From Lacibacter cauensis (lineage in GTDB: Bacteria > Bacteroidota > Bacteroidia > Chitinophagales > Chitinophagaceae), in NCBI RefSeq assembly GCF_007830055.1, contig NZ_VLLE01000002.1, positions 62,001 through 126,000 of the forward strand: a DNA stretch of 64,000 bases, in the 5' to 3' direction. The stretch's first letter is position 1. The number at the start of each line of letters is the position of its first letter. Positions 5,125 through 59,712 of this stretch are shown here, piece by piece. Both the position numbers and the translations under genes were made by a program. Below the pieces are notes generated by a model. The model searched no databases. It saw only the letters and a list, made by a program, of their open reading frames with translations, and had not been told where the DNA came from.

Positions 5125-5201
5125 GATGTCTGAATCAGGATATTTGATGGAGAATGTCTGAAGTAGGATGTAGGATATCTGATGTCTGATGTAAGAAGTA
5201 G
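5125..5201 (+). repeat. Degenerate 7-bp-period array, GATGTCT type, 11 units
   Basis: Eleven consecutive heptamers in exact phase without indels, consensus GATGTCT/GATGTAG. Position 2 is A in all 11 units and position 1 is G in 10 of 11. It does not code for a recognisable protein and lies upstream of the trmH-like gene. Confidence 0.85.
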
Positions 5202-5223
5202 TGGGCCAGCATTAAGGCAATCT

Positions 5224-5257
5224 ATTCACCACTCACTATTCAGCATTCACCATTACC
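5224..5257 (+). repeat. Degenerate 7-bp-period array, ATTCACC type, 4-5 units
   Basis: Units ATTCACC, ACTCACT, ATTCAGC and ATTCACC in phase; a fifth partial unit (ATTACC) merges into the TACCTTTG promoter core of the downstream gene. It is the same sequence type as the arrays inside lipB (9614) and hutU (48579). Confidence 0.85.
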
Positions 5258-5261
5258 TTTG
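5254..5261 (+). promoter_or_regulatory. Putative -7 element of the trmH-like gene
   Basis: TACCTTTG fits the Bacteroidota TAnnTTTG core and ends 4 bases before the chosen ATG at 5266, which would make the mRNA nearly leaderless. No clear TTG -33 element was found. Confidence 0.45.
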
Positions 5262-5265
5262 CCCG

Positions 5266-5802
5266 ATGCGAAAATTGAGCATGGATGAACTGAACCGTAA
5301 AACCGTGGATGAGTTCAAAGAAGCAGAAAAAAACAAGGTGATTGTGGTGCTGGAAAACATCCGCAGCATGCAGAATGTAGGGAGTGTGTTCCGTACCGCC
5401 GATGCGTTCCTGGCAGAAGCTATTTACCTGGTTGGTTATACACCGCAACCTCCGCACCGGGATATTCATAAAACAGCGCTGGGCGCTACCGAAACCGTAC
5501 ACTGGAAGTATTTTGCAACCACCGCCGAAGCCATTGCTGAACTGAAAGCCAACGGCTACAAATTGTTTGGTATTGAACAGGTGGAAGCAAGCATAATGCT
5601 GCAGGATTTTGAAAAAGCCCCCGATGAAAAAATAGCCCTCATTTTTGGTAACGAAGCAGAAGGCGTAGAACAGGAAACTCTGCTGCAATGCGAAGGATGT
5701 ATTGAAATACCGCAGTTTGGTATGAAACATTCGCTGAATATTAGTGTAGCTGCCGGTGTGGTGCTTTGGGAAATGGTAAGAAAAGGTATCTTGAACCAAT
5801 AA
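5266..5802 (+). CDS. TrmH/SpoU-family RNA 2'-O-methyltransferase
   Basis: SAM-dependent ribose methyltransferase acting on tRNA or rRNA; the exact target nucleotide cannot be read from sequence. The 178-residue protein has the SPOUT motifs in order: NIRSMQNVGSVFRTADA (motif 1, including the key Asn and Arg), IFGNEAEGV (motif 2) and IPQFGMKHSLNISVAAG (motif 3). The open frame extends upstream to 5182, but that part is translated from the heptamer array and is not protein-like, so the ATG at 5266 is preferred. A methionine at 5281 is a second possibility. It ends 6 bp before the UbiA-like gene, so the two are probably co-transcribed. Confidence 0.88.
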   Translation: MRKLSMDELNRKTVDEFKEAEKNKVIVVLENIRSMQNVGSVFRTADAFLAEAIYLVGYTPQPPHRDIHKTALGATETVHWKYFATTAEAIAELKANGYKLFGIEQVEASIMLQDFEKAPDEKIALIFGNEAEGVEQETLLQCEGCIEIPQFGMKHSLNISVAAGVVLWEMVRKGILNQ

Positions 5803-5808
5803 TCTGGA

Positions 5809-6759
5809 TTGAACAACATGAGTACAGTAAAGAACTATTTATCGCTGATAAAGTTTTCGCACACCATTTTTGCATTGCCTTTTGCATTGATTGGTTTTTT
5901 TCTAGCGATTGTTTTCGGAAATATTGAACATGGACATTGGAATTTAAATGAAACAATAGGCTGGGGGCCAAAGCCTTTTGATGCGAACTTCTTTGAACAT
6001 TATGGAAGTACAATTATTGTAAAGTTCACTCTAGTGCTCCTCTGCATGGTCTTTGCCCGCAGTGCAGCCATGGCCTTCAACCGTTATCTCGACAGAAGCT
6101 TCGATGCAAAAAATCCACGTACGGCCATTCGTGAAATACCGGCAGGAATTATTTCGGCCAACAGTGCATTACTGTTCACCATTATCAACAGTGTGTTGTT
6201 TGTGGTTACAACTTTCTTCATCAACACACTCTGCTTTGCATTATCGCCGGTGGCATTACTGGTGGTGCTGGGTTACAGTTATACCAAACGTTTTACTCCG
6301 CTTTGTCATTTAGTATTAGGCTTGGGTTTATCGTTGGCGCCCATCGGCGCTTACTTAGCTGTAACAGGTGTGTTTGATGTGTTGCCCATCTTGTTTTCAT
6401 TCACTGTATTGTTTTGGGTGAGTGGTTTCGATATTATTTATGCTTTACAGGATGAAGAGTTTGATAAGAAATACGAATTGAAATCCATCCCTGCCTGGTT
6501 AGGTAAAACAAAAGCGTTGCGTGTATCAGAGTTTCTGCATGTGCTTTCTGCATTTTGTGTTACAGCTGCAGGTTATTACGGCAACTTCGGAATGTTGTAT
6601 TGGATAGGTGTGGCGGTGTTTATTGGTATGTTGGTGTACCAGCATTCCATTGTAAAACCAAACGACCTCAGCAAAGTGAACATTGCATTTATGACAGCAA
6701 ACGGTATTGCCAGCGTGGTGTTTGCGGTGTTTGTGATAGCGGATATATTTATTGGATAA
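5809..6759 (+). CDS. UbiA-family prenyltransferase (MqnP/UbiA-like)
   Basis: Integral membrane prenyltransferase that attaches a polyprenyl chain to an aromatic acid, in this phylum presumably for menaquinone. The 316 residues contain about eight hydrophobic segments. The first Asp-rich motif, NRYLDRSFDAKNPRT (91-105), has the NxxxDxxxD spacing. A second one, QDEEFDKK, lies near 215-222. It resembles the ubiA_other/MqnP group of bacteria without ubiquinone, but MenA-type specificity is not excluded. ATG codons at 5809 and 5818 are both plausible starts. It follows the trmH-like gene by 6 bp. Confidence 0.85.
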   Translation: MNNMSTVKNYLSLIKFSHTIFALPFALIGFFLAIVFGNIEHGHWNLNETIGWGPKPFDANFFEHYGSTIIVKFTLVLLCMVFARSAAMAFNRYLDRSFDAKNPRTAIREIPAGIISANSALLFTIINSVLFVVTTFFINTLCFALSPVALLVVLGYSYTKRFTPLCHLVLGLGLSLAPIGAYLAVTGVFDVLPILFSFTVLFWVSGFDIIYALQDEEFDKKYELKSIPAWLGKTKALRVSEFLHVLSAFCVTAAGYYGNFGMLYWIGVAVFIGMLVYQHSIVKPNDLSKVNIAFMTANGIASVVFAVFVIADIFIG

Positions 6760-6762
6760 CCA

Positions 6763-6790
6763 GTTCATAGATCATGGTTCATCGTTCATA
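6763..6790 (+). repeat. 7-bp-period array, left arm of the four-helix-bundle element
   Basis: Four phased heptamers (GTTCATA, GATCATG, GTTCATC, GTTCATA) placed between the UbiA-like stop and the next ATG. Its reverse complement matches the array at 7165-7192 closely (about 25 of 29 positions), so the two flank the gene as inverted repeats. Confidence 0.85.
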
Positions 6791-6803
6791 GAAAAACACG
6801 CTT

Positions 6804-7154
6804 ATGGCTTTTCGTTTCGAAGAATTAAAGGTCTGGCAAATGGCACTGGACTTATCGAATGAGATTGATTTGCTTAGTAAAAAGTTTCCCGTTGAAGAGC
6901 GTTTCAGCCTTTCATCTCAAATAAAACGAGCAGCAGATTCGGTTGTATTGAATATTGCAGAAGGCAGTACTGGACAAACGAAGCCCGAGTTTAAGCGTTT
7001 TCTGGATATTGCACTTCGATCAGCAGTGGAGGTTGTGGCCTGCTTGTTTATGGCTATAAAGCGCAATTATATAAGCAAAGAGGAATTTGATAAAAATTAC
7101 ACAGCATACGAAGTTATTTGCAAAATGATCACTAAGCTGCGTGACTCAATGTAG
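6804..7154 (+). CDS. Four-helix-bundle protein (23S rRNA intervening-sequence / S23 family)
   Basis: The 116-residue protein has the family's start pattern (RFEELKVWQMALDLSNEI), the central motif SSQIKRAADSVVLNIAEGS and the later KRFLDIALRSAVEV segment. Homologues are encoded by intervening sequences inserted in 23S rRNA genes and are structurally related to the Avd accessory proteins of diversity-generating retroelements. Their biochemical role is not settled, and nucleic-acid binding has been suggested for the fold. Here the gene is outside rRNA and is bracketed by complementary heptamer arrays (6763-6790 and 7165-7192), with TAACC repeated just outside both. It sits between ubiA-like and ruvX on the same strand, so it interrupts an otherwise ordinary gene row. 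Confidence 0.92.
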   Translation: MAFRFEELKVWQMALDLSNEIDLLSKKFPVEERFSLSSQIKRAADSVVLNIAEGSTGQTKPEFKRFLDIALRSAVEVVACLFMAIKRNYISKEEFDKNYTAYEVICKMITKLRDSM

Positions 7155-7164
7155 GAGGTATACT

Positions 7165-7192
7165 ATGAACCATGAACCATCAACCATGAACT
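7165..7192 (+). repeat. 7-bp-period array, right arm of the four-helix-bundle element
   Basis: Four phased heptamers (ATGAACC, ATGAACC, ATCAACC, ATGAACT), the inverted counterpart of 6763-6790. It ends 9 bp before the ruvX start codon. Confidence 0.85.
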
Positions 7193-7201
7193 TGTAACCC
7201 A

Positions 7202-7612
7202 ATGGCCAGAATTCTTTGCATCGACTATGGCGGTAAACGCACCGGTATTGCTGTAACCGATCCGTTACAGATTATTGCGACCGGTTTGACGACGATTGAA
7301 ACAAAAAACTTCATTCCTTTTCTCAAAGATTATTTCAGCAAAGAGCAGGTGGAGAAAATCCTCATTGGTATGCCCACCAATTGGGACGACAGCGACACGC
7401 ACGCCACACCGTTAGTGAAGAATGCCATCGCTCAACTCAAGAAAAACTTTCCGCAGATTCCCGTTGAAACGGTAGATGAACGCTATACTTCCAAAATGGC
7501 GAAAGATGCCATGCTCGAAATGGGCCTGAAAAAAAGCCAGCGCCGGGATAAAAAACTGGTGGATGAAATTGCCGCTACCATTATGTTGCAGGAATATTTA
7601 GCAAGATTGTAG
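7202..7612 (+). CDS. ruvX: Putative pre-16S rRNA nuclease / Holliday junction resolvase-like YqgF
   Basis: RNase H-fold protein of 136 residues, the usual length for YqgF/RuvX, implicated in 5' maturation of 16S rRNA. The N-terminal CIDYGGKRTGIAVTDP carries the first catalytic Asp. LIGMPTNWDDSD contains the conserved GMP segment, VETVDERYTSKMA the conserved DERxTS-type motif, and KKLVDEIAATIMLQEYL the C-terminal Asp. It starts 9 bp after the right heptamer arm of the four-helix-bundle element. Its stop is followed within a few bases by another heptamer array leading to def. Confidence 0.93.
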   Translation: MARILCIDYGGKRTGIAVTDPLQIIATGLTTIETKNFIPFLKDYFSKEQVEKILIGMPTNWDDSDTHATPLVKNAIAQLKKNFPQIPVETVDERYTSKMAKDAMLEMGLKKSQRRDKKLVDEIAATIMLQEYLARL

Positions 7613-7639
7613 ATTTCAGATTGGCGATTGCAGGTTGCA
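7612..7639 (+). repeat. 7-bp-period array, GATTGCA type, left arm
   Basis: Four phased heptamers (GATTTCA, GATTGGC, GATTGCA, GGTTGCA) directly after ruvX. They are complementary to the array at 7686-7727, forming an inverted pair around a 46-bp centre. Confidence 0.85.
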
Positions 7640-7667
7640 CTCCCTTCGCCATCAATGTGTATATTTG
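7635..7667 (+). promoter_or_regulatory. Putative promoter of def inside an inverted heptamer pair
   Basis: TTG at 7635-7637 and TATATTTG at 7660-7667 are 22 bases apart, matching the Bacteroidota consensus. The -33 element lies in the last unit of the left array and the -7 element in the centre, so the right array would be transcribed as the def leader. Confidence 0.55.
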
Positions 7668-7685
7668 CAGCTTATTTTCCAGGGT

Positions 7686-7727
7686 TGCAATCTTCATATC
7701 TGCAATCCAAAATCGTAAATCTGAAAT
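7686..7727 (+). repeat. 7-bp-period array, CTGCAAT/CTGAAAT type, right arm
   Basis: Six phased heptamers (TGCAATC, TTCATAT, CTGCAAT, CCAAAAT, CGTAAAT, CTGAAAT). It is the inverted counterpart of 7612-7639 and ends 3 bp before the def ATG. Confidence 0.85.
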
Positions 7728-7730
7728 CGC

Positions 7731-8309
7731 ATGATTCTTCCTATTGTCGCATACGGCTTTGATGTACTTCGTAAAGTAGCAAAAGATATTACACCCGATT
7801 ACCCGGGCCTGGAGAAGCTTATTGCCGATATGTGGGAAACCATGTATTCATCAAACGGTGTAGGCTTGGCTGCTCCGCAGATCAATAAAGATATCCGGTT
7901 GTTTGTGGTAGACAGTGCACAGATGTTTGCCAATATGGATGAAGAAGAAGCCTTGCTGTATCCCGATCGTCCGGGCGTAAAACAGGTGTTCATCAATGCA
8001 CAGGTAGAAGAGTTGATTGGTGACGACTGGGCTTACAACGAAGGTTGTTTAAGTATTCCGAAGATTCGTGAAGATGTGTACCGTGCCGAAGAAGTAACAA
8101 TTCGCTACATGGATGAACACTTCAACGAACATGTAAAAACATTTGATGGTATTACGGCCCGTGTTATTCTGCACGAATACGATCATATAGAAGGGAAACT
8201 GTTTATCGATTATCTGAAACCGTTGAAGCGTAAAATGCTGAAAGGAAAACTCGATGATATATCAAAAGGAAAAGTGAGCGTAGATTATAAAATGGTGTTC
8301 CCTAAATAA
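7731..8309 (+). CDS. def: Peptide deformylase
   Basis: Metallo-enzyme that removes the formyl group from the N-terminal Met of nascent proteins. All three family motifs are intact in the 192-residue protein: GVGLAAPQI (43-51), EGCLSIP (104-110, metal ligand Cys106) and HEYDHIEG (148-155, ligands His148 and His152 with catalytic Glu149). The insertion around residues 60-85 is common in Bacteroidota enzymes. The predicted mRNA leader contains a heptamer array. The gene ends at a bidirectional terminator shared with the convergent pseudouridine synthase gene. Confidence 0.96.
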   Translation: MILPIVAYGFDVLRKVAKDITPDYPGLEKLIADMWETMYSSNGVGLAAPQINKDIRLFVVDSAQMFANMDEEEALLYPDRPGVKQVFINAQVEELIGDDWAYNEGCLSIPKIREDVYRAEEVTIRYMDEHFNEHVKTFDGITARVILHEYDHIEGKLFIDYLKPLKRKMLKGKLDDISKGKVSVDYKMVFPK

Positions 8310-8310
8310 G

Positions 8311-8345
8311 AAGAAAGCCCGTCACACGACGGGCTTTCTTTTTAT
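8311..8345. terminator. Bidirectional intrinsic terminator between def and the RluA-family gene
   Basis: Arms AAGAAAGCCCGTC and GACGGGCTTTCTT around an ACAC loop, with T-rich flanks on both strands. Confidence 0.92.
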
Positions 8346-9430
8346 TCATCATCTCCGGTGAGATTCTTCGCCTTTGTGTACACTCTCCATTTTTCAATTA
8401 CCTGTTGCATATCTATTGCCAGCTCACTGTCAAACAACATGCGTTCCTGTGTTTTAGGATGTGTAAAGCCCAGTGTTTTTGCATGGAGTGCATGGCGTGG
8501 ACAAATAGCGAAACAATTATCTACAAACTGTTTGTACTTGGTGTAAACCGTTCCTTTTACAATCCGGTCACCACCATACGTATCATCATTAAACAACGGG
8601 TGACCGATGTGCTGCATATGTACACGTATCTGGTGGGTGCGACCTGTTTCCAAACGACATTCTACCAGTGTGGTATAGCCGAAACGTTCCAGCACGGTGT
8701 AATGTGTAACGGCTTCTTTACCATATTCACCATCAGGATATACATCCATGATTTTACGGAAACGTTGATGCCTGCCTACATGACCGGTAATGGTTCCGTT
8801 ATCTTCTTTAATATCGCCCCACACCAAGGCCACATATTTACGCTCTACTGTATGGTTGAAAAACTGTTTGGCTAAATGCACGCTGGCCTGTTCGGTCTTA
8901 GCCATAATAACAAGTCCACTGGTATTTTTATCAATACGATGCACCATGCCAAAGCGTGGCAATTCATCTTCTGTAAGATTAGGTTGTTGCTGTTGAAAAT
9001 GCCATAAGGCACCGTTTACCAATGTGCCCGAATAGTTACCGCAGCCCGGGTGCATCACCATGCCGGCCACTTTGTTCACCAGCATTACGTGATCATCTTC
9101 GTACACAATGTTCAGCGGCAGTTGCTCAGGTTTCAGGTCTGTATCTTCAGGAGCAGTGTCGGTAAAGGTTACAATATCATCGCCCGGTTTTACTTTATAA
9201 TTGGCTTTAACGGTATTGTTGTTCACCAGTACCAGACCGGTTTCAATACCACGTTGTACTTTATTGCGGGTGGCACCTTCAATTTTCGTCATCAGGTATT
9301 TGTCTATACGCAAAGGTTCCTGCCCTTTGGTAACAACAAAACGCTTCTTCTCGAACAACTCTTCCGAGCCGTCGCCGTTCTCCAGTTCACTGTCTTCATC
9401 CAGTAATTCTTCGTCGATCATAAGCTGCAA
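8342..9430 (-). CDS. RluA-family pseudouridine synthase (RluD-like)
   Basis: Isomerises specific uridines of 23S rRNA (RluD-type sites) or of tRNA. The 362-residue protein has an acidic N-terminal extension, an S4 RNA-binding domain (about 38-90), then the catalytic domain with [12 protein letters not shown] holding the catalytic Asp167. RKYVALVWG and [12 protein letters not shown] are further family motifs. The start could be the Met at 9430 or at 9421; both precede the acidic extension. It is convergent with def and divergent from lipB, with about 50 bp between the two start codons. Confidence 0.92.
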
Positions 9431-9479: not shown

Positions 9480-10205
9480 ATGACACAACAGGTGCAGTTT
9501 GAAGATTTAGGAAACATGCCGTACAAACAGGCTTGGGATTACCAGGAAAGTTTGCTGAAGAAGAATCTGGAAGTAAAGGCTGCATTGCGTGTTGCAGCTG
9601 ATAGGCAGCAAGCACTCACGACTGACGACTCACGACTGACGACTCAACACTATCTTCTTTTCGTAGAACATCCACCCGTGTACACATTAGGTAAAAGCGG
9701 CGATGTAAGCAATATTCTTATAAGTGAAGAAGAACGTATTGCAAAAGGCATTGAATATTACCCAACCAATCGTGGTGGCGATATTACCTTTCATGGTCCG
9801 CAGCAAATTGTTGGTTATCCCATCTTCGACCTTGAAAAATTTGAGACCGACATTGGTAAATACCTCCGCAAGCTGGAAGATGTGATTATTCTAACAATGG
9901 CCGATTATGGATTGAAAGGCGATCGTAGTCCCGGTGAAACAGGTGTGTGGCTCGATCCGGATGTGAAAGGCAGGGAACGAAAAATCTGTGCCATGGGCGT
10001 GCGTTGCAGCCGCTGGATTACCATGCACGGTTTTGCATTTAATGTGAATACTGATCTTGCTTATTTCAACAACATCATTCCCTGTGGTATACAAAACAAA
10101 CAGGTTACTTCACTTGAAAAGGAACTTGGCCGTAAAGTTGATTTTGAAGAAGCCAAAGAAAGGGTGAAACGAAATTTTGAAAAAGTATTTGATATCAAAT
10201 TATAA
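9480..10205 (+). CDS. lipB: Octanoyltransferase (lipoate-protein ligase B) with an in-frame repeat insertion
   Basis: Transfers octanoyl from octanoyl-ACP to lipoyl domains, the first step of lipoate synthesis. The chosen ATG gives 241 residues; the open frame extends to 9201, but that part overlaps the divergent gene. Family motifs: [16 protein letters not shown] (59-74), [13 protein letters not shown], the catalytic Lys in [23 protein letters not shown], and PCGI with the acyl-carrying Cys. Residues 45-57 (about [13 protein letters not shown]) are encoded by five 7-bp repeats (9614-9648) inserted between the first helix and the HP motif, where the family is variable. This helps explain a length above the roughly 215 residues of E. 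coli LipB. The C-terminus overlaps the convergent gene by 6 bp. Confidence 0.94.
9614..9651 (+). repeat. 7-bp-period array inside lipB, ACTCACG/ACTGACG type
   Basis: Units ACTCACG, ACTGACG, ACTCACG, ACTGACG and ACTCAAC in exact phase, plus ACT. It is in frame within the lipB coding sequence and encodes a hydrophilic Thr/Asp-rich loop. The unit is close to the ATTCACC arrays at 5224 and 48579. Confidence 0.9.
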
Positions 10206-24084: not shown

Positions 24085-25177
24085 GGAGTTGTTGATAAAA
24101 GTGAATTAATCGTTTTTCTTCTTCCTGCCAGTTTAAAACGGCTGCAGCCTGCTGGCAGTTTGCTTTCAGCCGGTTATATAAAACAGGGTCGGACAATAAT
24201 TTGTTCAAACCATTTGCAATAGACGCTTCGCTTGTATCCGGTATCAGTAACGCAATTTCAAATTGATTGTTGATGTTCCGGTAAGCTGGATAATCAACGC
24301 ACAACTGCGGAATGCCTGCCTGGATATAATCGAAAAAACGGTTTGCCAGCGAAAGGTAGTTACTCAGGCCATTGTTTTCAAATAAAGTAATACCGGCATA
24401 AGCTGTAGCAGTGATCTCTTTCAGTTCAGTCGGGTTTAATTTGCCCTTCAGCTCAACTTTATTTTGCAGCTGATTGCTGTTGATGAGTGCTTTTGTCTGC
24501 TCCAGAAAATTACCATCGCCATAAATTTGCAGTGGAGCGTCCACCTTTTTCATAGCGGGAATCAAGGTTTCAAAACTGCGGCCTTCGTTTACGGCGCCTT
24601 GATAGAGGAGGAAGGTTTCTGGTTCATTGGAATTTGGATTTTGGAATTTGGATTTTTTGAGAAACGGAACATTCCGCACTACTTCATACTGCACGCCGTA
24701 CATTTTTTCAAACTCTTCGGCAATGGGTTGGCAAACGGTATAACCATGTTTGAATTTTGGTACAGTAAACCGTTCAATCCATTTCCACATGCGATAACGG
24801 GAAGGACGGGTAACAATCTCCTTCATCTCACAAAACAACTCATGTGCATCGTATACACGTTTGCTGCCTTTTAGTGTTGATGCGAAGTAACAAGGTAAGA
24901 TGGTATCAAGATCGATGGAACAAATGCAATCTGCCTTTTGAAATAATAACCAGATAAATAAACGCAGGTTATACTCTGCATAAAACAAAGGCCCTTTGGT
25001 AAACCAGCAATACAATCGTTTTTGAAGAAAGGGATGATGTTGTAGTGGGGCTGACTGTGTTAGCGTTCTTCCAACCAATGTAACAGTATAACCTTGTTGT
25101 GCAAGCGTAGTACAGATACGGATCATGCGTTGATCGTAGGTGAGGTCGTTGGTAACTGTACAGATAATGCTTGCCAA
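24077..25177 (-). CDS. Glycosyltransferase (GT4-like) with a small in-frame repeat insertion
   Basis: A 366-residue GT-B enzyme. The N-terminus SIICTVTNDLTYDQRMIRIC and the segment VYDAHELFCEM are typical of Bacteroidota GT4-like proteins. The donor domain shows LLYQGAVNEGRSFETLI, QIYGDGNFLEQ and later SLANRFFDYIQAGIPQLC. Residues about 174-183 (around KFQNPNSN) are encoded by four heptamers GGAATTT/GGATTTT, at the linker between the two domains. It overlaps the next glycosyltransferase by 8 bp. The real substrate is unknown. Confidence 0.85.
   Translation of the reverse strand: MASIICTVTNDLTYDQRMIRICTTLAQQGYTVTLVGRTLTQSAPLQHHPFLQKRLYCWFTKGPLFYAEYNLRLFIWLLFQKADCICSIDLDTILPCYFASTLKGSKRVYDAHELFCEMKEIVTRPSRYRMWKWIERFTVPKFKHGYTVCQPIAEEFEKMYGVQYEVVRNVPFLKKSKFQNPNSNEPETFLLYQGAVNEGRSFETLIPAMKKVDAPLQIYGDGNFLEQTKALINSNQLQNKVELKGKLNPTELKEITATAYAGITLFENNGLSNYLSLANRFFDYIQAGIPQLCVDYPAYRNINNQFEIALLIPDTSEASIANGLNKLLSDPVLYNRLKANCQQAAAVLNWQEEEKRLIHFYQQLLG
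24629..24656. repeat. 7-bp-period array inside a glycosyltransferase gene
   Basis: Units GGAATTT and GGATTTT alternate twice (four units, exact phase). It is read on the minus strand as part of the coding frame. Confidence 0.85.
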
Positions 25178-35151: not shown

Positions 35152-35270
35152 AAGTCCGGAAGACTGGAAGTCAGGAAGACCGAAAGTCAGAAAGTATCAG
35201 CCCGATAAATCAGCAGCTTCTTTCTTTCGGACTTTCCGACTATTGGCTCCCGACTTCCGACTCTTTCCCT
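35152..35270. repeat. Facing arrays with an 8-bp period between dnaG and prfB
   Basis: The left arm 35152-35199 has six phased octamers of AAGTCAGG type. The right arm, about 35221-35270, has looser 8-bp units of the complementary sense (GGACTTTC, ACTTCCGA). The arms form an imperfect inverted pair just upstream of the prfB -7 element. Confidence 0.75.
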
Positions 35271-44509: not shown

Positions 44510-44624
44510 ACGGGAATCTTTAGAGGTTAAAGGTATTCCTGTAGCGTTTATGGCTGCATGCCTGCAGTCAAAAAAGGGGATGATTGTTATCAGAAAATTT
44601 TGAAGAGTATCTGTTGAGTCATTT

Positions 44625-44735
44625 GTCATTCCGACGCAGGAGGAATCTGCTGAAGTCTTTTGTCATTTCGACGAAGGAGAAATCTGCCCAACTGTTGTAC
44701 TGAAGCCCAACAGATCCCTCGTACCTCGGGATGAC
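44625..44735. repeat. GTCAT...GATGAC palindromic repeat, copy 1 (with an extra left half)
   Basis: The palindrome proper is 44661-44735: GTCATTTCGACGAAGGAG at the left and CCTCGTACCTCGGGATGAC-type sequence at the right. A second left half, GTCATTCCGACGCAGGAGG, precedes it at 44625. It belongs to the family also seen at 50018, 52990, 54905 and 57805. Confidence 0.85.
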
Positions 44736-46210: not shown

Positions 46211-47710
46211 ATGACCGAATACAATTATCTCCCCCTCGATGAGCAGCCACTTACCTTCGATGAAGTGAAGAATTACCTGCAGTTCAAACAATTTGTTTCC
46301 ATCACTTTTCGTGCACACCACAAGATCGAAACATGCAGAAGCTATCTCGATCAGAAAGTAGCCGAAAGCGATACGCCGTTCTATGGTATCAACACTGGTT
46401 TTGGTTTTCTGCAGAATGTGATTATTGCCGATGATCAGTTAGAGCAACTGCAGAACAATTTACTCATGAGCCATGCATGCGGTATGGGCGAAGAAGTGCC
46501 GGAAGAAATTGTAAAGCTCATGCTCGCCTTAAAAATAAAATCATTGAGCTATGGTTACAGTGCCGTGCAGGTAGATACCGTGAAACGTTTAATGGACATG
46601 CACAACAACAATGTGTTACCCGTTATTTATCAGCAGGGATCATTGGGCGCAAGTGGTGATCTGGCTCCACTCAGTCATTTGAGTTTGCCATTAATTGGTA
46701 TGGGCGAAGTGAAGTATGAAGGCACAAGGTACAAGGCGCAAGAAGTACTGAACAAGTTAGGATGGCAACCCATTCATTTAAAAAGCAAAGAAGGGTTAGC
46801 GCTCATCAACGGTACACAATTCATGAGTGCGTATGGTATGTACTGTTTGGTGCAAGCCGAACGGTTGATGCAATGGGCCGATCTCATCGCAGCCATTTCC
46901 TTCGATGCATTTGATTGTATCGATCAACCCTTTCATGAAAAAATACAAACCATCCGTCCACACAGCGGACAAATACACACCGCTCAACAATTAAGAAACA
47001 TTTTGAGCGGAAGTGAAATTGGTCAGCAGAAAAAACAACAGGTACAGGATCCCTATAGTTTCCGTTGCATACCGCAAGTACATGGCGCCACTAAAGATGC
47101 ATTGGCACATGTAAAGAATGTATTCTTAACCGAAATCAATTCTGTTACTGATAATCCCAATGTATTTCCCGAAGAAGATTTGATTGTAAGCGGTGGCAAC
47201 TTTCACGGTCAGCCGTTGGCGTTAGCCTTGGATTATTTTTCCATTGCTATGAGTGAACTCGCCAACATCAGCGAACGCAGAACCTATCAACTCATCAGCG
47301 GACAACGTAACCTGCCCATGTTCCTTGTAAAAGAAGCCGGACTCAACAGCGGCTTTATGATTCCGCAATACACAGCAGCAGGCATTGTAAGTGAAAACAA
47401 ACAACTCTGCACACCGGCAAGTGTTGATAGTATTTCAAGCAGCAATAACCAGGAAGATCATGTAAGCATGGGCGCCAATGCAGCTACCAAGGCTTATCGT
47501 GTCATGAAGAATGTAGAAAAAGTATTAGCCATCGAATTACTTAGTGCAGCGCAGGCATTGGATTTCCGTCGACCGTTAAAAAGTTCAGCGAAAGTAGAAG
47601 AAGTGATGCGTGCATTCCGCAAGCAGGTAAGCTTTGTTGATAAAGACAGAGTGTTGCATGAGGATATGATCGCTGCCGTAACGTTCATCAGTAAAGAGTT
47701 GAACCACTAA
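46211..47710 (+). CDS. hutH: Histidine ammonia-lyase
   Basis: Converts histidine to urocanate, the first step of histidine degradation. The 499-residue protein has the MIO-forming Ala-Ser-Gly at 147-149 inside QGSLGASGDLAPLSHL. FYGINTGFG at the N-terminal side, the GSEIGQQKKQQVQDPYSFRC region and NFHGQPLALALDY are family blocks. hutU follows 350 bp downstream with a repeat element between, so it may not be a simple operon. hutI and hutG are not in the window. Confidence 0.95.
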   Translation: MTEYNYLPLDEQPLTFDEVKNYLQFKQFVSITFRAHHKIETCRSYLDQKVAESDTPFYGINTGFGFLQNVIIADDQLEQLQNNLLMSHACGMGEEVPEEIVKLMLALKIKSLSYGYSAVQVDTVKRLMDMHNNNVLPVIYQQGSLGASGDLAPLSHLSLPLIGMGEVKYEGTRYKAQEVLNKLGWQPIHLKSKEGLALINGTQFMSAYGMYCLVQAERLMQWADLIAAISFDAFDCIDQPFHEKIQTIRPHSGQIHTAQQLRNILSGSEIGQQKKQQVQDPYSFRCIPQVHGATKDALAHVKNVFLTEINSVTDNPNVFPEEDLIVSGGNFHGQPLALALDYFSIAMSELANISERRTYQLISGQRNLPMFLVKEAGLNSGFMIPQYTAAGIVSENKQLCTPASVDSISSSNNQEDHVSMGANAATKAYRVMKNVEKVLAIELLSAAQALDFRRPLKSSAKVEEVMRAFRKQVSFVDKDRVLHEDMIAAVTFISKELNH

Positions 47711-47730: not shown

Positions 47731-47758
47731 GGTAGTGGTTAGTCGTTAGTAGCTAGTA
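47731..47758 (+). repeat. 7-bp-period array, GTTAGTA type
   Basis: Four phased heptamers (GGTAGTG, GTTAGTC, GTTAGTA, GCTAGTA) 20 bp after the hutH stop. Confidence 0.8.
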
Positions 47759-48059: not shown

Positions 48060-49892
48060 ATGTCAACAACTACACAACACTACGACGCCATCAAATACAA
48101 AACCCCCACGGGCAGTGAATTAACATGTAAAGGCTGGATCCAGGAAGCCGCCCTCCGCATGCTCCTCAACAACCTCAACCCCGATGTAGCCGAACGCCCC
48201 GACGATCTCATCGTCTACGGCGGCCGAGGCAAAGCAGCACGCAACTTCGAAGCACTCGATAACATCATTGCCGCCTTGAAAGTATTGGAGAACGATGAAT
48301 CACTCCTCATCCAGAGTGGTAAACCAGTGGGCATCTTAAAAACACACAAAGATGCACCACGTGTACTCATCAGCAACAGTCAGTTAGTACCCAACTGGGC
48401 CAACTGGAAACACTTCGATGAGCTGGAGAAAAAAGGACTCATGATGTATGGACAAATGACCGCCGGCTCCTGGATCTACATCGGCTCACAAGGCATTGTA
48501 CAAGGCACCTATGAAACCTATGCAGCAATAGCTGACAGACATTTTTCACAAGCTTCTTCAAACGCACAACAGCCCGGCACTCACCATTCACCATTGACCA
48601 TTCACGCCGGAGGCACCCTCAAAGGCACACTCAACGTTACAGCCGGACTCGGCGGCATGGGCGGCGCACAACCACTCGCCATTACCATGAACGAAGGCGT
48701 GGCACTCATTGCCGAAGTAGAAGAGTGGCGCATCGATAAACGCATCGAAACAAAATACCTCGACGAAAAATATACCAGCATCGATGAAGCCATAGACAAG
48801 GCACAAGTATACAAAGCACAAGGAACAGCCAAAAGCATTGGCGTACTATGTAATGCTGTTCATCTCTTACAACGACTCATCGAACGCAACATCATCCCCG
48901 ATACATTAACTGATCAGACAAGTGCACACGATCCCCTCATTGGTTATGTACCACACACATTAACAAACGAACAGGCCAACATCCTCCGCACACAAAACCC
49001 AACGGAGTACCTTGAACGCAGTTACGAAAGCATGTACCTCCACGTACAACTCATGCTGCAACTCATGGACCAGGGAGCTATCACGTTCGATTATGGAAAC
49101 AACATTCGGGCAAGAGCGTTTGAGTTTGAGAACCGTCAAACGCAAGCCGATAGCCAAAAGCCGATAGTAGATAGTAAAGAACCACTACCGACTACACACT
49201 ACCGGCTATCGGCTAACAACTTTCCAACCGGAAGATGCTTCTCCTTTCCAGGATTTGTACCTGCCTACATACGACCATTGTTTTGCGAAGGCAAAGGCCC
49301 CTTCCGTTGGGCAGCACTCAGTGGCGATGCCAACGATATTGCCGTAACCGACGAACTCATCATGAACATGTTCCCCGAAAACAAAGGCATGATCCGCTGG
49401 ATGAAAATGGCGCAGGAAAAAATTGCCTTCCAGGGATTACCGGCACGCATCTGCTGGCTCGGCCAGGGCGAACGGGAAAAAGCAGGACTCGCCTTTAACG
49501 AACTCGTACGCACCGGCAAAGTAAAAGCGCCCATTGTCATTGGTCGTGATCATTTAGATACCGGCTCGGTAGCCAGCCCCAACCGTGAAACCGAAAGCAT
49601 GCTCGATGGCAGCGATGCCGTGGCCGATTGGCCTATCCTCAACGCACTCGTTAACACCGCAGGCGGCGCCAGTTGGGTAAGCCTGCATCATGGTGGCGGT
49701 GTAGGTATGGGTTACAGTATCCACGCCGGTATGGTGATTGTGGCTGATGGAACAGATGATGCCGAAGCAAGATTGAAACGGGTTTTACGTAACGATCCGG
49801 GAATGGGTGTGATACGACATGCGGACGCCGGCTATGAACTCGCCCAAGAAACCGCAAAAGCCCATAACTTAAACATACTCGATAGAATTTAA
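48060..49892 (+). CDS. hutU: Urocanate hydratase with two in-frame repeat insertions
   Basis: NAD-dependent conversion of urocanate to imidazolonepropionate. The 610-residue protein is about 50 longer than the usual 550-560. Family blocks are intact: [65 protein letters not shown] and [14 protein letters not shown]. One extra segment (about 162-184) includes four heptamers (48579-48606). The second (about 355-395) includes ten heptamers (49146-49215). Both fall in loops between conserved blocks, so activity may survive. The DNA looks richer in C at third positions than its neighbours. A remnant of another hutU 3' end follows at 49927. Confidence 0.93.
48579..48606 (+). repeat. 7-bp-period array in hutU, ATTCACC type
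   Basis: ACTCACC, ATTCACC, ATTGACC, ATTCACG in exact phase, coding for about residues 174-183 ([10 protein letters not shown]). Same type as 5224 and 9614. Confidence 0.9.
49146..49215 (+). repeat. Palindromic 7-bp-period array in hutU, 5+5 units
   Basis: Five GCCGATA-type units followed by five complementary units of ACCACTA/CCGGCTA type. All ten units have A at position 7. The two halves form an imperfect inverted repeat and stay in frame. Confidence 0.9.
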
Positions 49893-55049: not shown

Positions 55050-56609
55050 TTACAACGGAAAATCAAAATCAAACACAAAGCGTTCTGCTTTCGGCAATGG
55101 TTTGCGTGGCATCAACTCGGTACGCATCGCAGTATTATAAACAAACGCTGCAACAATCACCGCAGCCTGTTGTAAATCGGGAATGGATAAATGTTCATAC
55201 GTATCCATATTGCTGTGGTGGGTACGGGTTTCATATTCCATCGGGTCTTGTATAAACTGGAAACCCGGAATGCCCACTGCATCAAAACTTACATGATCTG
55301 TTGAGCCGGTACTGCTGAGTGTAACACCACCATTTGCACCAAGGTCTGTAAACGGAGCTAACCAGTTTCTGAAAATCGGCACTACGGCTTCATTGCCCTG
55401 TGCATAAATACCTCTTATTTTTCCTGTACCATTATCGAGATTGTAATAAGCACTTATTTTTTGTTGCTCAGGTTTCAGCTGCATATCGGCCGGGTTTCCA
55501 AAATGTTTTTTTACATAACCAAATGAACCGTACAAGCCTTGCTCTTCGCCACCCCACAACGCAATACGAATGGTACGTTTAGGCTTAACCGGTAGTGCGT
55601 TGAGTATGCGCATGGCTTCCATCATTACAATACAGCCTGCTGCATTATCGGTTGCACCGGTACCACCTGTCCAGCTATCTAAATGTCCGCCCAGCATTAC
55701 TACTTCGTTTTTCAACACAGGATCAGTACCAGGTATTTCTGCAACAAAATTGTAGCCGGTTAAATCATCATTGTAAAAGCGGTTGTTGACATTCAGCTCA
55801 AGCGATACCTTTTGTTTATTCTGAATTAACCGTGCAATGCGCATCGCTGTTTCAATACTCATCGTCATTTCGGGTAAAGTAGCAGCATAGCCTTTTGCAT
55901 ACGAAGTAGCACCTTGTACAAATACAGTACCATCTCTCGAACCACGATTGCTGTTAAGCAAAGCAACAGCTCCTTTCTTTGCAAGGTAGAGCTTGGTATA
56001 GTATTCGGCTTTGAGGTAAGGAACAAACGCTTCAATTTCGCTGCGGGCGAACATGTAGGTAGGAGGAAGATGATCCAGGCTGCTGTCGCCATAACGTTTC
56101 GCCAATGGTTGAAACGGAAAGTTAAGCGGACGGTTGGCTGGTTTCACCATCACAATTTTACCTTTAATGTTTGCGCCGAGTTTATCAATCGATGCAGAGT
56201 CGAGTGCATCAATCAAAGCTACTTCGGCCATTGCTGGTTTGGTGGTGCCGAGTGTCCACGGAACAGGATAGGCAATAATATCTTCAAAATAGGGTGTACG
56301 CATATTTAATGCGCTGTATTCGTTGCTCCATCCTTTGCCAAACTCGCCCCATGCTTCTTTTCGTGGGTTGGAAAAGTTAAACTCTTTGCTGATGCTGATA
56401 AGCCACTGCAGTGCCCTGTTGTAACCGGGTGAATTGGTGAGGCGTGGTCCGCTGCCATCGGTTAAATGGTGGGCAAAGAGTTCTATTTTGGAATTTTTGA
56501 GGCCTTGTTCACGAATCAAATTCATGATTTGTATATCAACTGTGTCTTGTGCAGTTGCCTGTAATAAGAATAGAAAAGACAAAAAGAAACCGGTGATGAT
56601 TTTTTGCAT
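55050..56609 (-). CDS. Exported M28-family zinc aminopeptidase
   Basis: A 519-residue exopeptidase with signal peptide (MQKIITGFFLSFLFLLQATAQ). The order is a protease-associated (PA) insertion, then the catalytic domain with VMLGGHLDSWTGGTGATDNAAG (His and Asp ligands), IALWGGEEQGLYGS (general base and Glu ligand), the YNLDNGTGK segment, and the last His in TRTHHSNMDTYEHL. These are the five metal-binding positions expected for M28. It is probably periplasmic or secreted without a T9SS tail. Confidence 0.93.
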   Translation of the reverse strand: MQKIITGFFLSFLFLLQATAQDTVDIQIMNLIREQGLKNSKIELFAHHLTDGSGPRLTNSPGYNRALQWLISISKEFNFSNPRKEAWGEFGKGWSNEYSALNMRTPYFEDIIAYPVPWTLGTTKPAMAEVALIDALDSASIDKLGANIKGKIVMVKPANRPLNFPFQPLAKRYGDSSLDHLPPTYMFARSEIEAFVPYLKAEYYTKLYLAKKGAVALLNSNRGSRDGTVFVQGATSYAKGYAATLPEMTMSIETAMRIARLIQNKQKVSLELNVNNRFYNDDLTGYNFVAEIPGTDPVLKNEVVMLGGHLDSWTGGTGATDNAAGCIVMMEAMRILNALPVKPKRTIRIALWGGEEQGLYGSFGYVKKHFGNPADMQLKPEQQKISAYYNLDNGTGKIRGIYAQGNEAVVPIFRNWLAPFTDLGANGGVTLSSTGSTDHVSFDAVGIPGFQFIQDPMEYETRTHHSNMDTYEHLSIPDLQQAAVIVAAFVYNTAMRTELMPRKPLPKAERFVFDFDFPL

Positions 56610-56770
56610 ACGCAGAATTTAGAAAACCAAAGTAGGAAGAAGTATTAAAAAATCATAATGCTGTTGCAGCAGTTGTTGATAAGCCGGGCTTAAACAGGGA
56701 AACACCTGTATGAATTGTGGAGAAAGCAATAACTTTCGGCTTTGATTTATTCAACCAATCTATTCGATAA

Positions 56771-57736
56771 ATGATCAACTGGGGTATTATCGGTTGCGGC
56801 GATGTAACCGAAGTAAAGAGTGGTCCGGCATTTAACAAAGTGCCCGGTTCGAAGCTTGTAGCTGTGATGCGGCGTGATGCAGCTAAAGCAGCTGACTATG
56901 CCAAACGGCATAACGTACCACGTTGGTATAACGATGCGGAGGCGCTCATCAACGATGCAGAAGTAAATGCCATTTATATTGCTACACCACCTTCCTCGCA
57001 TGAAGCGTATGCGTTGGCAGCAATCAAAGCAGGTAAGCCAGTGTATGTAGAGAAGCCTATGACGATGAGTTATGCAGCAGCACAAAACATGGTTCATGCA
57101 GCAGATGCAGCTAATGTAAAACTCACCGTAGCACATTACCGCAGGCAATGGCCTTTGTTTCAAAAGATCCGTTCGCTGCTTGCAGAAAAAGCTATTGGTG
57201 AAGTGCGGTTGGTGCAGTTGACATTCTGTAAGCAACCGCCCACTGCTGCCGAACTGAGCGATGAAAAACTGTTGTGGCGATTTGACCCTGCTATTGCAGG
57301 TGGTGGTTTGTTTCACGACCTGGCGCCACACCAACTCGATATTTTGTATTGGTTGTTTGGTGAAGCAGCAACAGTGAATGGTCTTGCTCTGAACCAGGGT
57401 GGATATTATGCCGTGCCTGATTTGGTGAATGGGCAAATTCTTTTTCGTAATAAAATTGTATTTACCGGCAGCTGGTGTTTTACTGCAGCAGAAGCTACCG
57501 ATGAATGTGTCATCATCGGTAGTGAAGGTTCGTTGCGTTTTAGCTTTTTTACCCATAACAGTATTACACTGCAACGTAATAATGAAACAACCCGTTTTGA
57601 TTTTGATCGTCTGCAACATGTACAGCAACCGATGATCGAAGCAGTGGTGAATTATTTTTTGGGCAATGCGGCGAATCCCTGTACGGCAGCAGAAGGAGCA
57701 GAGATCATGCGATGGATGGATGAGATGGTGAAGTGA
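56771..57736 (+). CDS. Gfo/Idh/MocA-family oxidoreductase
   Basis: A 321-residue NAD(P)-dependent oxidoreductase. MINWGIIGCGDVTEVKSGPA is the Rossmann fold with the GxGxxx turn, and ATPPSSHEAYALAAIKAGKPVYVEKPM contains the family's EKP motif (catalytic Lys). The C-terminal half is the alpha/beta domain, including GGGLFHDLAPHQLDIL with its conserved His. The substrate is unknown, commonly sugars or cyclitols. It is monocistronic and divergent from the M28 peptidase. Confidence 0.9.
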   Translation: MINWGIIGCGDVTEVKSGPAFNKVPGSKLVAVMRRDAAKAADYAKRHNVPRWYNDAEALINDAEVNAIYIATPPSSHEAYALAAIKAGKPVYVEKPMTMSYAAAQNMVHAADAANVKLTVAHYRRQWPLFQKIRSLLAEKAIGEVRLVQLTFCKQPPTAAELSDEKLLWRFDPAIAGGGLFHDLAPHQLDILYWLFGEAATVNGLALNQGGYYAVPDLVNGQILFRNKIVFTGSWCFTAAEATDECVIIGSEGSLRFSFFTHNSITLQRNNETTRFDFDRLQHVQQPMIEAVVNYFLGNAANPCTAAEGAEIMRWMDEMVK

Positions 57737-57804
57737 GTTTGATTTTGTTTATTGGTCAAGCGACCAACAACGGCGTTGAAATAAAAGAGGGGTTGAAATT
57801 ACCT

Positions 57805-57877
57805 GTCCTCCAGACGAAGGAGGGATCTGCCTGGCATTTGCACGAACATCAACAGATTCCTCGTGCCTCGGGATGAC
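57805..57877. repeat. GTCAT...GATGAC palindromic repeat, copy 5
   Basis: The left arm has drifted (GTCCTCCAGACGAAGGAGGG), the right arm is AGATTCCTCGTGCCTCGGGA-TGAC; same size as copy 4. Confidence 0.85.
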
Positions 57878-57916
57878 AAAAACCAAAGAACTGCCGCAAA
57901 AAAATATTCAAATAAA

Positions 57917-57944
57917 AAGTCTCTGGCAGTTTACCAGAGACTTT
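57917..57944 (-). terminator. Intrinsic terminator of the cyclophilin gene
   Basis: AAAGTCTCTGG and CCAGAGACTTT arms around CAGTTTA-type loop; the minus strand continues in TTTTATTT. Confidence 0.85.
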
Positions 57945-57967
57945 CTATTTGTGAAAGTAAAATCATT

Positions 57968-58414
57968 TTATGTCAGTATTACCTTCTCCATCACATCACC
58001 TGCACGTATTGCATCAATCACATCTAAACCTTCAGTAATTTTTCCAAAGCAGGTATGATTGCGATCGAGATGTTTTACGCCATTGCGGTTATGGCAAATG
58101 AAAAACTGGCTGCCGCCTGTGTTGCGTCCACGATGCGCCATCGACATCACTCCTCGGTCATGAAACTGTTTGGTGCCGTTTAACTCGCAGGGGATCGTGT
58201 AGCCCGGTCCGCCGGCACCTGTACCATCCGGGCAGCCGCCCTGGATCATAAAGTCAGGAATAACACGGTGAAACTTCAGCCCGTTGTAAAAACCTTCGCT
58301 TACCAATTTTTTAAAGTTGCCTGCAGCAATCGGGGCATCGTCATCATATAATTCAAACTTCATAATACCCTTGGCCGTATGTATTTCGCCGGTGGTTAAT
58401 TTTATTTCGCTCAT
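57968..58414 (-). CDS. Cyclophilin-type peptidyl-prolyl isomerase
   Basis: A 148-residue cytosolic isomerase (no signal peptide). The cyclophilin core is plain: [27 protein letters not shown] (catalytic Arg in FHRVI), [29 protein letters not shown] and [15 protein letters not shown]. It belongs to the small PpiB-like group. The start ATG lies just upstream of a short A-rich gap and there is no alternative. Confidence 0.93.
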
Positions 58415-58640
58415 AGTTCCTTTTTTTAAGACTGCGAAAGTAACATATAGCTATGAATTGCAGGACAGCTACCGGTCATTTTTCGAAGCGGTTAAGATGG
58501 GGTGCACAGTGTGTTCTCCAATCTTAACAATGTTTTGCCACGCACAACTTTCAGATCAAGGAAACGTTTTCTATTTTGTTGTTGCAATTCCGGTTGATGC
58601 GGAACACATGCTGCAGCAACAGTTAACTAAATCGTACCAT
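58415..58640. other. Upstream region between the cyclophilin and lipoprotein genes
   Basis: Open in one frame, but no protein-like features; no repeats seen. It should hold two divergent promoters. Confidence 0.4.
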
Positions 58641-59621
58641 ATGCCTTCAACTCTACTCAAACATGTTTGGTTGCTTTTATTCTTTACGGCCTGTGCCACT
58701 GTTTCACAGGAGCATCTCAGCAATAACCCTCAGCAAAAAATAAAGCCTGCTGCAACCACTTCAGCAATTGACACATTATTGATTGATGAACAACCGAAAC
58801 CTTTGACCGATCTGCAGCAAACGGAAGAAGGACAGATTGTGTTGCAGGAAGGTTATTACGAAGCAACCTATAAAAGTTATTGTCTGCAACCCGGTACTCC
58901 CGATCCATCAGACAGGGATGCCTACCTGCAAATGCCTTTGCAAACACACCGGAAAGAAATTGTAGAAACAGTGTTGCGAGGATCGTTGCAAAAACCGGAG
59001 CTTGAACAAAAGAATATTCAGCTGTTATTATGGTCGGTTGTGAGTGGTTCTGACTATAACAGGCTTTCATGGCCCGTGCAGTTAACCGCACAACAATTGC
59101 TCACAAAGAAGCAGATCTTTCAACTAAAGGGTGGGGTAGCAGGTGTAATAAAAACAGTTGCACAACAGTTGCCCGATGCACGCATCACCGGTGCGCAAAT
59201 AAGTATGAAGCGTTTGTTTGAAACAGGTGCGAGCTCTTACGAAACTTTTGAGCGTGTGGCAGTGTTGCGTGAAAAATCGATCGTACACAATGAAGCATAC
59301 AGGAAGGATCAATGGAACAAACAGACAGGTGGTTATTATCTGCGTTACTTCCCTAACGGTTACCAGCAGGTGAAAATACAGGTGTACGTTCCAAAAGGCA
59401 CACTCGATTCTGCAGGCATGCAGAATGGTCATTATCTGTTGTTCGATCCTGTGAACCAAATGGCTGTCCCGGCAAATTCCAATGCACAACGTTTAGGTAT
59501 AGGTTCGCCGGTTGCAGAAGTAATTCGCAAGATTATTCGTATCCAAAAAGATATTCCGAAACCGCAACCGAAGCAACCAACACCAAAACAACAACCAAAG
59601 TCAAGTAAAGAACAGCAATAG
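58641..59621 (+). CDS. Lipoprotein of unknown function
   Basis: The ATG at 58641 gives a 326-residue protein (MPSTLLKHVWLLLFFTACAT) with an SPII signal and lipobox FFTAC. A charged, Gln-rich linker (about 25-60) follows. The middle includes GYYEATYKSYCLQPGTPDPS and LLLWSVVSGSDYN, and the C-terminus ends in a Pro/Lys/Gln-rich tail (PKPQPKQPTPKQQPKSSKEQ). The upstream open frame to 58317 is discarded because it would cover the divergent gene's start. Related proteins are known in Bacteroidota only as hypothetical. Confidence 0.75.
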   Translation: MPSTLLKHVWLLLFFTACATVSQEHLSNNPQQKIKPAATTSAIDTLLIDEQPKPLTDLQQTEEGQIVLQEGYYEATYKSYCLQPGTPDPSDRDAYLQMPLQTHRKEIVETVLRGSLQKPELEQKNIQLLLWSVVSGSDYNRLSWPVQLTAQQLLTKKQIFQLKGGVAGVIKTVAQQLPDARITGAQISMKRLFETGASSYETFERVAVLREKSIVHNEAYRKDQWNKQTGGYYLRYFPNGYQQVKIQVYVPKGTLDSAGMQNGHYLLFDPVNQMAVPANSNAQRLGIGSPVAEVIRKIIRIQKDIPKPQPKQPTPKQQPKSSKEQQ

Positions 59622-59635
59622 TAAACGACTGGGTT

Positions 59636-59712
59636 TTGGTTCTTGTTCCTTGTCTCTTTTGCCTTGGATATTATTTCTTGAACCTTGTACTTTGTCCTCG
59701 TGCCTTTATTCT
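59636..59712 (+). repeat. 7-bp-period array, TTGTTCC type, 11 units
   Basis: Eleven phased heptamers (such as TTGGTTC, TTGTTCC, TTGAACC, TTGTCCT); TT is at positions 1-2 in ten of them. It starts 14 bp after the lipoprotein stop and ends 15 bp before the GNAT start. Confidence 0.9.

Follow-up and report, generated by a model that had tools for sequence, protein, structure and literature searches.

Why should a stretch of bacterial DNA carry many short tandem arrays that keep a strict seven-base phase while their letters drift? The question is raised by 64,000 bp of Lacibacter cauensis DNA (hereafter the window, G000:C1:62001-126000, where G000 is the 4.95 Mb Lacibacter genome holding it), in which the initial annotation listed 13 such loci near gene starts and inside genes. 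We found that these scattered arrays are mostly, not all, the arms of apparently mobile hairpins, some of which carry one tiny gene and many none. The gene encodes a protein of the family PF05635 (23S_rRNA_IVP, hereafter IVP), and the arrays are very probably the arms of small stem-loop elements, that is, of rRNA-type intervening sequences (IVSs) in dispersed form, accompanied by gene-less copies similar to miniature inverted-repeat transposable elements (MITEs).

The reported seven-base periodicity is real. An identity scan at periods of 2 to 44, with Markov-5 sequence as the null, detected 13 lag-7 segments with a score of at least 9 in the window compared to 0.8 expected, and 48 lag-7 arrays in 464 kb of G000 compared to 5.7 expected (21 versus 0.3 at scores of at least 12). 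Locally, all 13 listed loci beat dinucleotide resampling, with uncorrected P values of 0.001-0.003 at 12 loci and 0.008 at the weakest one (59636). Because of this Markov-5 excess and the performance of all the listed loci against local resampling, we consider the periodicity sound, and the lag-7 autocorrelation that the initial annotation expected to exceed randomised sequence does so. Period 7 shows by far the largest excess in G000, with harmonics at 14 and 21; the excess at period 8 is smaller (15 versus 6.0 in the same 464 kb, and 6 versus 0 at scores of at least 12), and there is a small excess at periods 6, 9, 12, 15 and other multiples of three. The arrays avoid genes: coding sequence makes up 86% of this DNA, yet 29 of the 48 are intergenic, 8 lie across a gene edge and 11 fall within called genes.

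The clearest element in the window occupies 430 bp (6762-7191, on the + strand, as are the arms, arrays and hairpins of this class described below) and consists of a PF05635 gene flanked by two inverted heptad arrays. Its 5' arm (6762..6790; GTTCATA/GATCATG/GTTCATC/GTTCATA; lag-7 score 11, local P 0.001) has an inverted partner near 7191 (P 0.01), and its 3' arm (7162..7191) reads ATGAACC/ATGAACC/ATCAACC/ATGAACT (lag-7 score 15.5, local P 0.001). In the RNA fold of this region, the arrays at 6763 and 7165 close a stem. Several loci that had been listed as separate arrays are inverted pairs, namely 6763/7165 with the IVP gene between them, 7612/7686-7728, 49146/49184, and 35152 with its octad partner. 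The gene (6804..7154, 116 aa) lies between those for UbiA and RuvX, and its product matches Pfam PF05635 (E 7.5e-35) and NCBIfam TIGR02436, four helix bundle protein (E 2e-30). It is 96% identical to an IVP of Lacibacter luteus, and its structure model (predicted local distance difference test score, pLDDT, 94.6) matches 2gsc with a template modelling (TM) score of 0.95, as well as 2rld; the solved structures 2gsc and 2rld show five chains each. The IVP at the ubiA-ruvX site is under purifying selection, with ratios of nonsynonymous to synonymous substitution (dN/dS) of 0.018-0.054 in four of six species pairs (the other two not being estimable). Measurable dS values lie between 0.6 and 1.8, and all four species retain the GTTCAT arm type.

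G000 contains 12 PF05635 matches, 11 of them above the cut-off, whereas 14 control genomes contain none. By eye, their flanks carry heptad arrays (octads at locus L025) whose units differ at most loci; with a score of at least 8 within 200 bp, heptads were detected at 10 of the 12 and octads at L025. The association was followed in 195 IVP genes, comprising these 12, the best 80 of 328 loci from named genomes (Chitinophagaceae, Niabella, Pedobacter, Mucilaginibacter and others), 89 loci among the matches listed for the order (60 of them chosen mainly without stops), in which 35 of 40 genomes have PF05635, and 14 plasmid loci. The plasmid loci were sampled from 25 records found by tblastn with the IVP of L024, mainly from cyanobacteria and up to 70% identical, and include 12 cyanobacterial loci, one from Azospirillum and one from Gemmatirosa. 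Short flanks removed 5 of the 195 loci from the analysis, leaving 190, and 2 from the test of both sides, leaving 193.

Among 92 loci, the density of lag-7 arrays was 11.5 per kb in the first 50 bp downstream of the IVP stop codon and 6.1 per kb over the 50 bp immediately upstream of the start. At distances above 300 bp it was 0.05-0.33 per kb, and within the IVP open reading frame 0.03 per kb. At score 8, a lag-7 array was present within 200 bp at 144 of the 190 loci and a lag-8 array at 31, with no other period exceeding 20 apart from multiples of 7 and 8; the corresponding figures for ordinary G000 genes were 49/327 and 16/327. By group, lag-7 arrays accompanied 10/12 own, 65/80 named, 57/84 order and 12/14 plasmid loci. 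Arrays within 80 bp on both sides were found at 62 of 193 IVP genes and at 2 of 333 ordinary G000 genes. An octad class comprises 26 of the 195 loci, which were assigned period 8 at score 7. On the plasmids, 11 of 14 loci have lag-7 arrays (score 8) within 300 bp on both sides, one has them on a single side and the other two show only lag-8 arrays, the units including GGGAACA, TGTAGGG, AAAAGCT and CAGGAGT. Three cyanobacterial plasmid IVP genes (L168, L169 and L171) are located inside CRISPR-Cas operons, flanked by cas10 and cmr3 or by cas6 and cas4.

IVP genes are co-directional with both neighbours at 145 of 154 callable loci (181 tried, some of them orthologous), including 11 of 12 own loci and 17 of 18 callable best-per-genome loci. 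In another count this was the case for 104 of 109 IVP genes versus 42% of 297 ordinary genes, and the IVP genes are probably expressed by read-through.

The two arms of one locus belong together. In 87 of 102 two-armed IVP loci, the arms match each other above the mean of 20 unit shuffles (Wilcoxon P 1e-15), and the 231 arms have a median of 4.3 units (quartiles 3.7 and 4.7). With unit types assigned at score 7, similar units become more frequent among locus pairs as IVP identity rises, from 7-11% of pairs below 35% identity to 49% at 50-60%, 79% at 60-70% and 96% above that, these shares including orthologous loci of related species. Within genomes, unit similarity correlates with IVP identity (rho 0.41, 123 pairs), and between genomes 60% of 45 pairs with at least 55% IVP identity are unit-similar. 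For 230 pairs with at least 45% identity, the observed unit similarity was reached by none of 1000 permutations. These comparisons show that the unit letters follow the IVP subfamily. The proposal that phase is conserved while letters are not applies across IVP subfamilies; within close ones, conservation extends to the letters.

Arrays without a gene (solo arrays) were compared with the arm types of the resident IVPs in two genomes of one family, using 41 arrays in G000 and 26 in G047. The G000 arrays have a mean best similarity of 0.825 to the 11 resident heptad arm types, compared to 0.711 (standard deviation 0.031) for equally large random arm sets drawn from the order, none of 200 of which reached the resident value. 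In G047, only six heptad types could be obtained from 14 IVPs, and the solo arrays were again closer to the arms of their own IVPs (0 of 200 random sets). The types of the own genome outperform those of the other genome in both directions, and all seven solo inverted pairs show the same polarity as IVP arms. In these two genomes the gene-less arrays are thus shown to resemble the arms of the resident IVPs, and we assign them to the same family. Strong arrays occur at 6.0 per 100 kb in G000 and 4.5 in G047, while four members of the order without IVP have 0.50, 0, 0.91 and 0, and E. coli K-12 has 0 (two homopolymer arrays of G040 were removed by a complexity filter before the count). The IVP-free genome G028 of the same family has 2 strong arrays in 400 kb versus 24 in G000.

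Comparison of orthologous loci in relatives, also proposed by the initial annotation, revealed that arrays are present in some Lacibacter genomes and absent in others. The IVP between ubiA and ruvX occurs in 4 of 13 Lacibacter genomes, and several of the others have unrelated palindromic repeats in this place. In the IVP-lacking gaps L039 and L041-L045, these are palindromes of the GACGAAGGAGA...TCTC type and the CCCCGGAGGGG type. At the L027 site, examined by eye in 13 genomes, five have an IVP and three a gene-less hairpin whose units are of another type; the remaining five show no heptad hairpin. In the ruvX-def gap, other Lacibacter genomes show heptad arms at the place where the window has a gene-less hairpin, often with other letters (by eye).

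Two further sites are located inside the urocanase gene of the window. The solved urocanase 1x87 lacks two stretches of its product, approximately 20 residues at site A (48578..48605, an in-frame CACTCAC/CATTCAC array) and approximately 32 residues at site B (49145..49215, an in-frame gene-less hairpin with GCCGATA ... TATCGGC arms and a fold z of -6.5). Site A has an insert in 5 of 12 Lacibacter genomes, heptad-like by eye in four of the five; locus L248, site A of G012, has an in-frame non-heptad insert of C-run/G-run composition. Site B was found by eye to contain GCCGATA-, GTCAATG-, AGTAATA- or AATCGAAA-type hairpins or an octad hairpin depending on the species, a partial hairpin in G004 and G009, and none in three genomes, always in frame. 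Outside Lacibacter, filled and empty sites on Nostoc plasmids differ by an insert of approximately 421 bp, and a Picosynechococcus IVP copy separates cas10 from cmr3, with no copy at this place in a relative. Such presence and absence at orthologous sites, together with the tie between unit types and IVP subfamilies, bears out the earlier idea of a family of elements of different ages.

The closest described system is the IVS of 23S rRNA. In Coxiella, this is a 428-nt element with an S23 gene in the stem of terminal inverted repeats; heptameric repeats precede the S23 gene, and their number varies between strains (PMC4990558). The 23S rRNA IVSs of Coxiella, Leptospira and others carry an S23/IVP gene inside an inverted-repeat stem, and for rRNA IVSs the RNA is reported to be removed by RNase III without ligation (PMC4990558). 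The window element likewise contains a PF05635/S23 gene within terminal inverted repeats, the stem being weak or unclear at some loci of the family, but it lies between ubiA and ruvX and not in 23S rRNA. An Rfam scan of four IVP loci placed only the Azospirillum copy (L177) in large subunit (LSU) rRNA (match 295-3339), where it has heptad arms. Unlike the rRNA IVSs, the copies described here are mostly located between protein genes, belong to several divergent subfamilies per genome, and are accompanied by gene-less derivatives, of which one lies within a protein gene. We did not see heptads in both arms, or a tie of these to the protein, in the consulted part of the Coxiella account (PMC4990558). 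Besides the Coxiella IVS, we found no publication linking IVP genes and heptad arrays in the open-access literature, subscription papers lying outside the search. Since we found no literature link beyond Coxiella and the rRNA location does not apply to the window copy, we class the element as a variant of the IVS kind, which it resembles and probably works like. The remark that no described class has these properties was thus too broad for the anatomy, which is that of the 23S rRNA IVS, and for heptamers next to S23, which have been published in one species (PMC4990558). It stands for the dispersal of the elements, for the correspondence of arm letters with the protein and for the copies that lack a gene, none of which our searches of the open-access literature found described.

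In the mechanism that we propose, a full element of approximately 420-430 bp consists of inverted arms of about four heptads each around one PF05635 gene, an IVS anatomy dispersed between the genes of operons. Gene-less copies, made up either of an arm pair with a short loop or of a single arm, are scattered more widely, like MITEs. The presence and absence at sites suggest that the elements move, and the gene-less copies may be mobilised in trans by the resident IVPs. An IVP oligomer would recognise the arms, most likely with one heptad per subunit; phase would then be kept while the letters drift with the protein. In transcripts, the arms would form a stem cut by RNase III, as reported for the rRNA IVS, and this cutting would make insertion into operons tolerable. 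We offer a more far-reaching version only tentatively. It holds that a five-fold IVP reads the phase of the ends and not one fixed sequence, one heptad (an octad in one branch) per subunit, so that letters can drift with the protein into many private codes but the seven-base step is unable to change; that the elements represent a transposase-free mobile class; that their gene-less copies are the common source of heptamers in cyanobacteria, Xanthomonas, Beggiatoaceae and Bacteroidota; and that rRNA IVSs are copies that landed in 23S rRNA.

Several results weigh against this interpretation. The whole IVP element of the window folds little above shuffled sequences (z -1.7), the heptads of the own IVP L027 score only 7.5, below the threshold of 8 within 200 bp, and the two arms at L033 are not clearly inverted by eye. 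At score 8, 65 of 193 IVP genes have no lag-7 array within 80 bp, some of them having octads. The correlation of unit similarity with IVP identity is only 0.12 over all between-genome pairs, and in clusters 1 and 2 the units are loosely conserved. At score 7, 98 of 327 ordinary genes would receive a unit type too; this assignment noise is expected to weaken the relation between unit and protein and not to create it. Among the 37 arrays that are intergenic or on gene edges, no more than 12 have an inverted partner that lies within 150 bp and exceeds the 95% control level. Solo arrays are not enriched between co-directional genes (16/25, versus 62% of intergenic DNA), which leaves them unsupported as an operon feature. 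The IVP-bearing genomes G020, G033 and G046 have no strong array in 80 kb each, and a fourth further IVP-bearing genome, also sampled over 80 kb, has 2.5 per 100 kb. Because three of the six sampled IVP-bearing genomes lack strong arrays, the presence of IVPs is by itself not enough to fill a genome with solo arrays. The sample is small, and within it an IVP seems to be required but is not sufficient. No transposition event was observed, and long target-site duplications were absent from the resolvable sites; of two Nostoc IVP sites, one has no duplication and the other 3 bp, ATG, which could be start-codon repair. Finally, neither of two candidate movers is consistently present in the 16 genomes searched, where reverse transcriptase PF00078 is missing from 10 and the Y1 transposase PF01797 from 5. 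Neither explains the movement, since in each case the genomes lacking it include heptad-bearing Lacibacter.

The same survey bears on a version of the proposed mechanism in which the IVP is a cofactor like Avd of diversity-generating retroelements and presents the stem-loop RNA to a reverse transcriptase. The fold of the IVP is similar to that of Avd (TM 0.78 with 4dwl and 0.79 with 8ube, although the Foldseek E values of 0.27 and 0.38 are not significant), two of ten IVPs tested have a distant NCBIfam Avd match scoring below the cut-off, and the sense orientation of IVP genes would fit. However, there is no reverse transcriptase beside the window IVP, and the genomes without PF00078 include Lacibacter G007, G010 and G011; in two of these, G007 and G011, the urocanase gene contains heptad hairpins. 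We regard retromobility as unlikely.

According to another explanation, the heptad hairpins are self-standing or arise by structure-driven mutation, and IVP genes merely settle in their loops. Gene-less arrays do outnumber IVP copies (of the 48 arrays in 464 kb, two are the arms of the sole IVP there), and a site with a gene-less hairpin of one type in one species can be filled by an IVP of a different type in a second species. Against this explanation, unit letters go with the IVP subfamily across species, gene-less types go with the resident IVPs, and the five IVP-free genomes sampled have at most 0.91 strong arrays per 100 kb versus the values for G000 and G047. This explanation appears less likely still.

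Polymerase slippage favouring seven-nucleotide units would make heptamers anywhere, their nearness to IVP genes being incidental. Slippage was proposed for long simple repeats by Mrazek 2007, as cited in PMC4679880, and heptanucleotides are the top category of long repeats in most of the genomes of that 2007 study, according to PMC4679880. Whole-unit copy-number differences between some strains agree with it, and single arms such as that at 9614 would, taken alone, fit long simple sequence repeats. The arms of IVP loci differ from such repeats in being inverted and unit-matched. The concentration of arrays at IVP genes relative to the 333 control genes, the tie of units to IVP subfamily, the low count in IVP-free G028 and the presence or absence of whole hairpins between species also speak against slippage, which as the sole cause is contradicted by the IVP association and arm pairing and may adjust the number of units. 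We consider this explanation very improbable; slippage, chance and codon-level periodicity are ruled out as the whole cause by the Markov-5, period and gene controls. That the arrays are regulatory binding sites for translational control or attenuation, as suggested for TAACTGA repeats and proposed for translation in Beggiatoaceae (PMC4679880), would suit the 37 of 48 arrays that are intergenic or on gene edges, but is least credible in view of the in-frame copies in urocanase, the differing unit types of related species at one site and the absence of an array at the same gene in a sister species.

Among mobile elements, the gene-less copies invite comparison with MITEs and with repetitive extragenic palindromic (REP) sequences and their REPtrons, which are gene-less hairpins dispersed beside fuller copies with one small gene. 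The combination of gene-less hairpins and one-gene copies is the same here, and an inverted-ended gene-less copy related to a fuller resident copy was found in two genomes. In contrast to these systems, the element encodes no transposase, and its terminal repeats share phase and not letters across the family. At the two Nostoc sites, which concern full IVP elements, no target-site duplication longer than 3 bp was found.

Similar hairpin elements may account for heptad repeats reported in several distant bacterial groups. In Xanthomonas and Nostoc, degenerate GGGAATC and GGGGA(C/T)T heptads, mostly of four units and 89-93% intergenic, have been interpreted as G-quadruplex repeats, with 70 and 75 close inverted GGGAATC pairs in two Xanthomonas genomes and heptanucleotides of Calothrix also mentioned; the term 'four helix' is absent from the main text (PMC4692102). 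The solved IVP 2gsc originates from Xanthomonas campestris, and the Xanthomonas heptads may be linked to IVP. TAACTGA repeats of Beggiatoaceae, Cyanobacteria and Bacteroidetes are patchily distributed and lie near gene starts, and in two Cyanothece strains their indels occur mostly in 7-nt steps (PMC4679880). They share both patchiness and heptad arrays near gene starts with the Lacibacter arrays, but the main text of that work, in which 'intervening' and '23S' do not occur, makes no IVP link (PMC4679880). Two old puzzles, the abundance of heptads in scattered bacteria and the role of the S23/IVP gene, are possibly one. The IVP link makes both testable through a protein-unit code and through the arms it predicts around IVP genes in other phyla, and points to a widespread insertion family in operons and even inside an enzyme gene.

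The remaining arrays of the window differ in how well they fit this class. The gene-less hairpin in the ruvX-def gap has a 5' arm of the GATTTCA/GATTGGC/GATTGCA type (7604..7639; lag-7 score 9) with an inverted partner (score 13, P 0.01) and a 3' arm at 7704..7728 (lag-7 score 8, local P 0.003), the hairpin folding with z -4.2. An octad hairpin, AAGTCCGG/AAGACTGG ... CTTTCGGACTTTCCGAC, spans 35152..35262 (lag-8 score 13.5, inverted partner P 0.02, fold z -2.7); octad arms were also assigned to the resident IVP L025. Four other arrays stand alone. The GATGTAG/GATGTCT array at 5145..5200 (lag-7 score 14 for the segment 5160-5200, with a 21-bp period from 5145) has a similarity of 0.94 to the arms of resident IVP L033 and no inverted partner within 450 bp. 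The adjacent ATTCACC array at 5224..5254 (lag-7 score 9.5) has a similarity of 0.93 to the arms of L029; the arrays at 5125 and 5224 do not form one hairpin, as they have two unit types and no fold (z +1.1). The ACTCACG/ACTGACG array at 9614..9646 (lag-7 score 16.5, similarity 0.97 to the arms of L028) is located in the 5' part of a called LplA/B-type gene, the start codon of which is uncertain, and no inverted partner was found for it. The TAGTCGT/TAGTAGC array in the hutH-urocanase gap (47733..47758; lag-7 score 11.5) has a similarity of 0.75 to the arms of L031 and no significant inverted partner.

Two of the listed loci, 24629 and 59636, probably do not belong to this class, having arm similarities of 0.71 and 0.62, respectively, and no inverted partner. 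The first (24627-24656) is a mismatch-free 14-bp unit repeated 2.1 times inside a glycosyltransferase gene, with no good match to an arm type, and the second (59636-59712) is a weak T-rich period-7 stretch with neither a partner nor a fitting arm type. Period-7 stretches at 46719 and 14614, both in called genes, were likewise excluded (arm similarity 0.50 and 0.62). The window also contains a tandem repeat at 44609-44687 that carries GACGAAGGAGAA.

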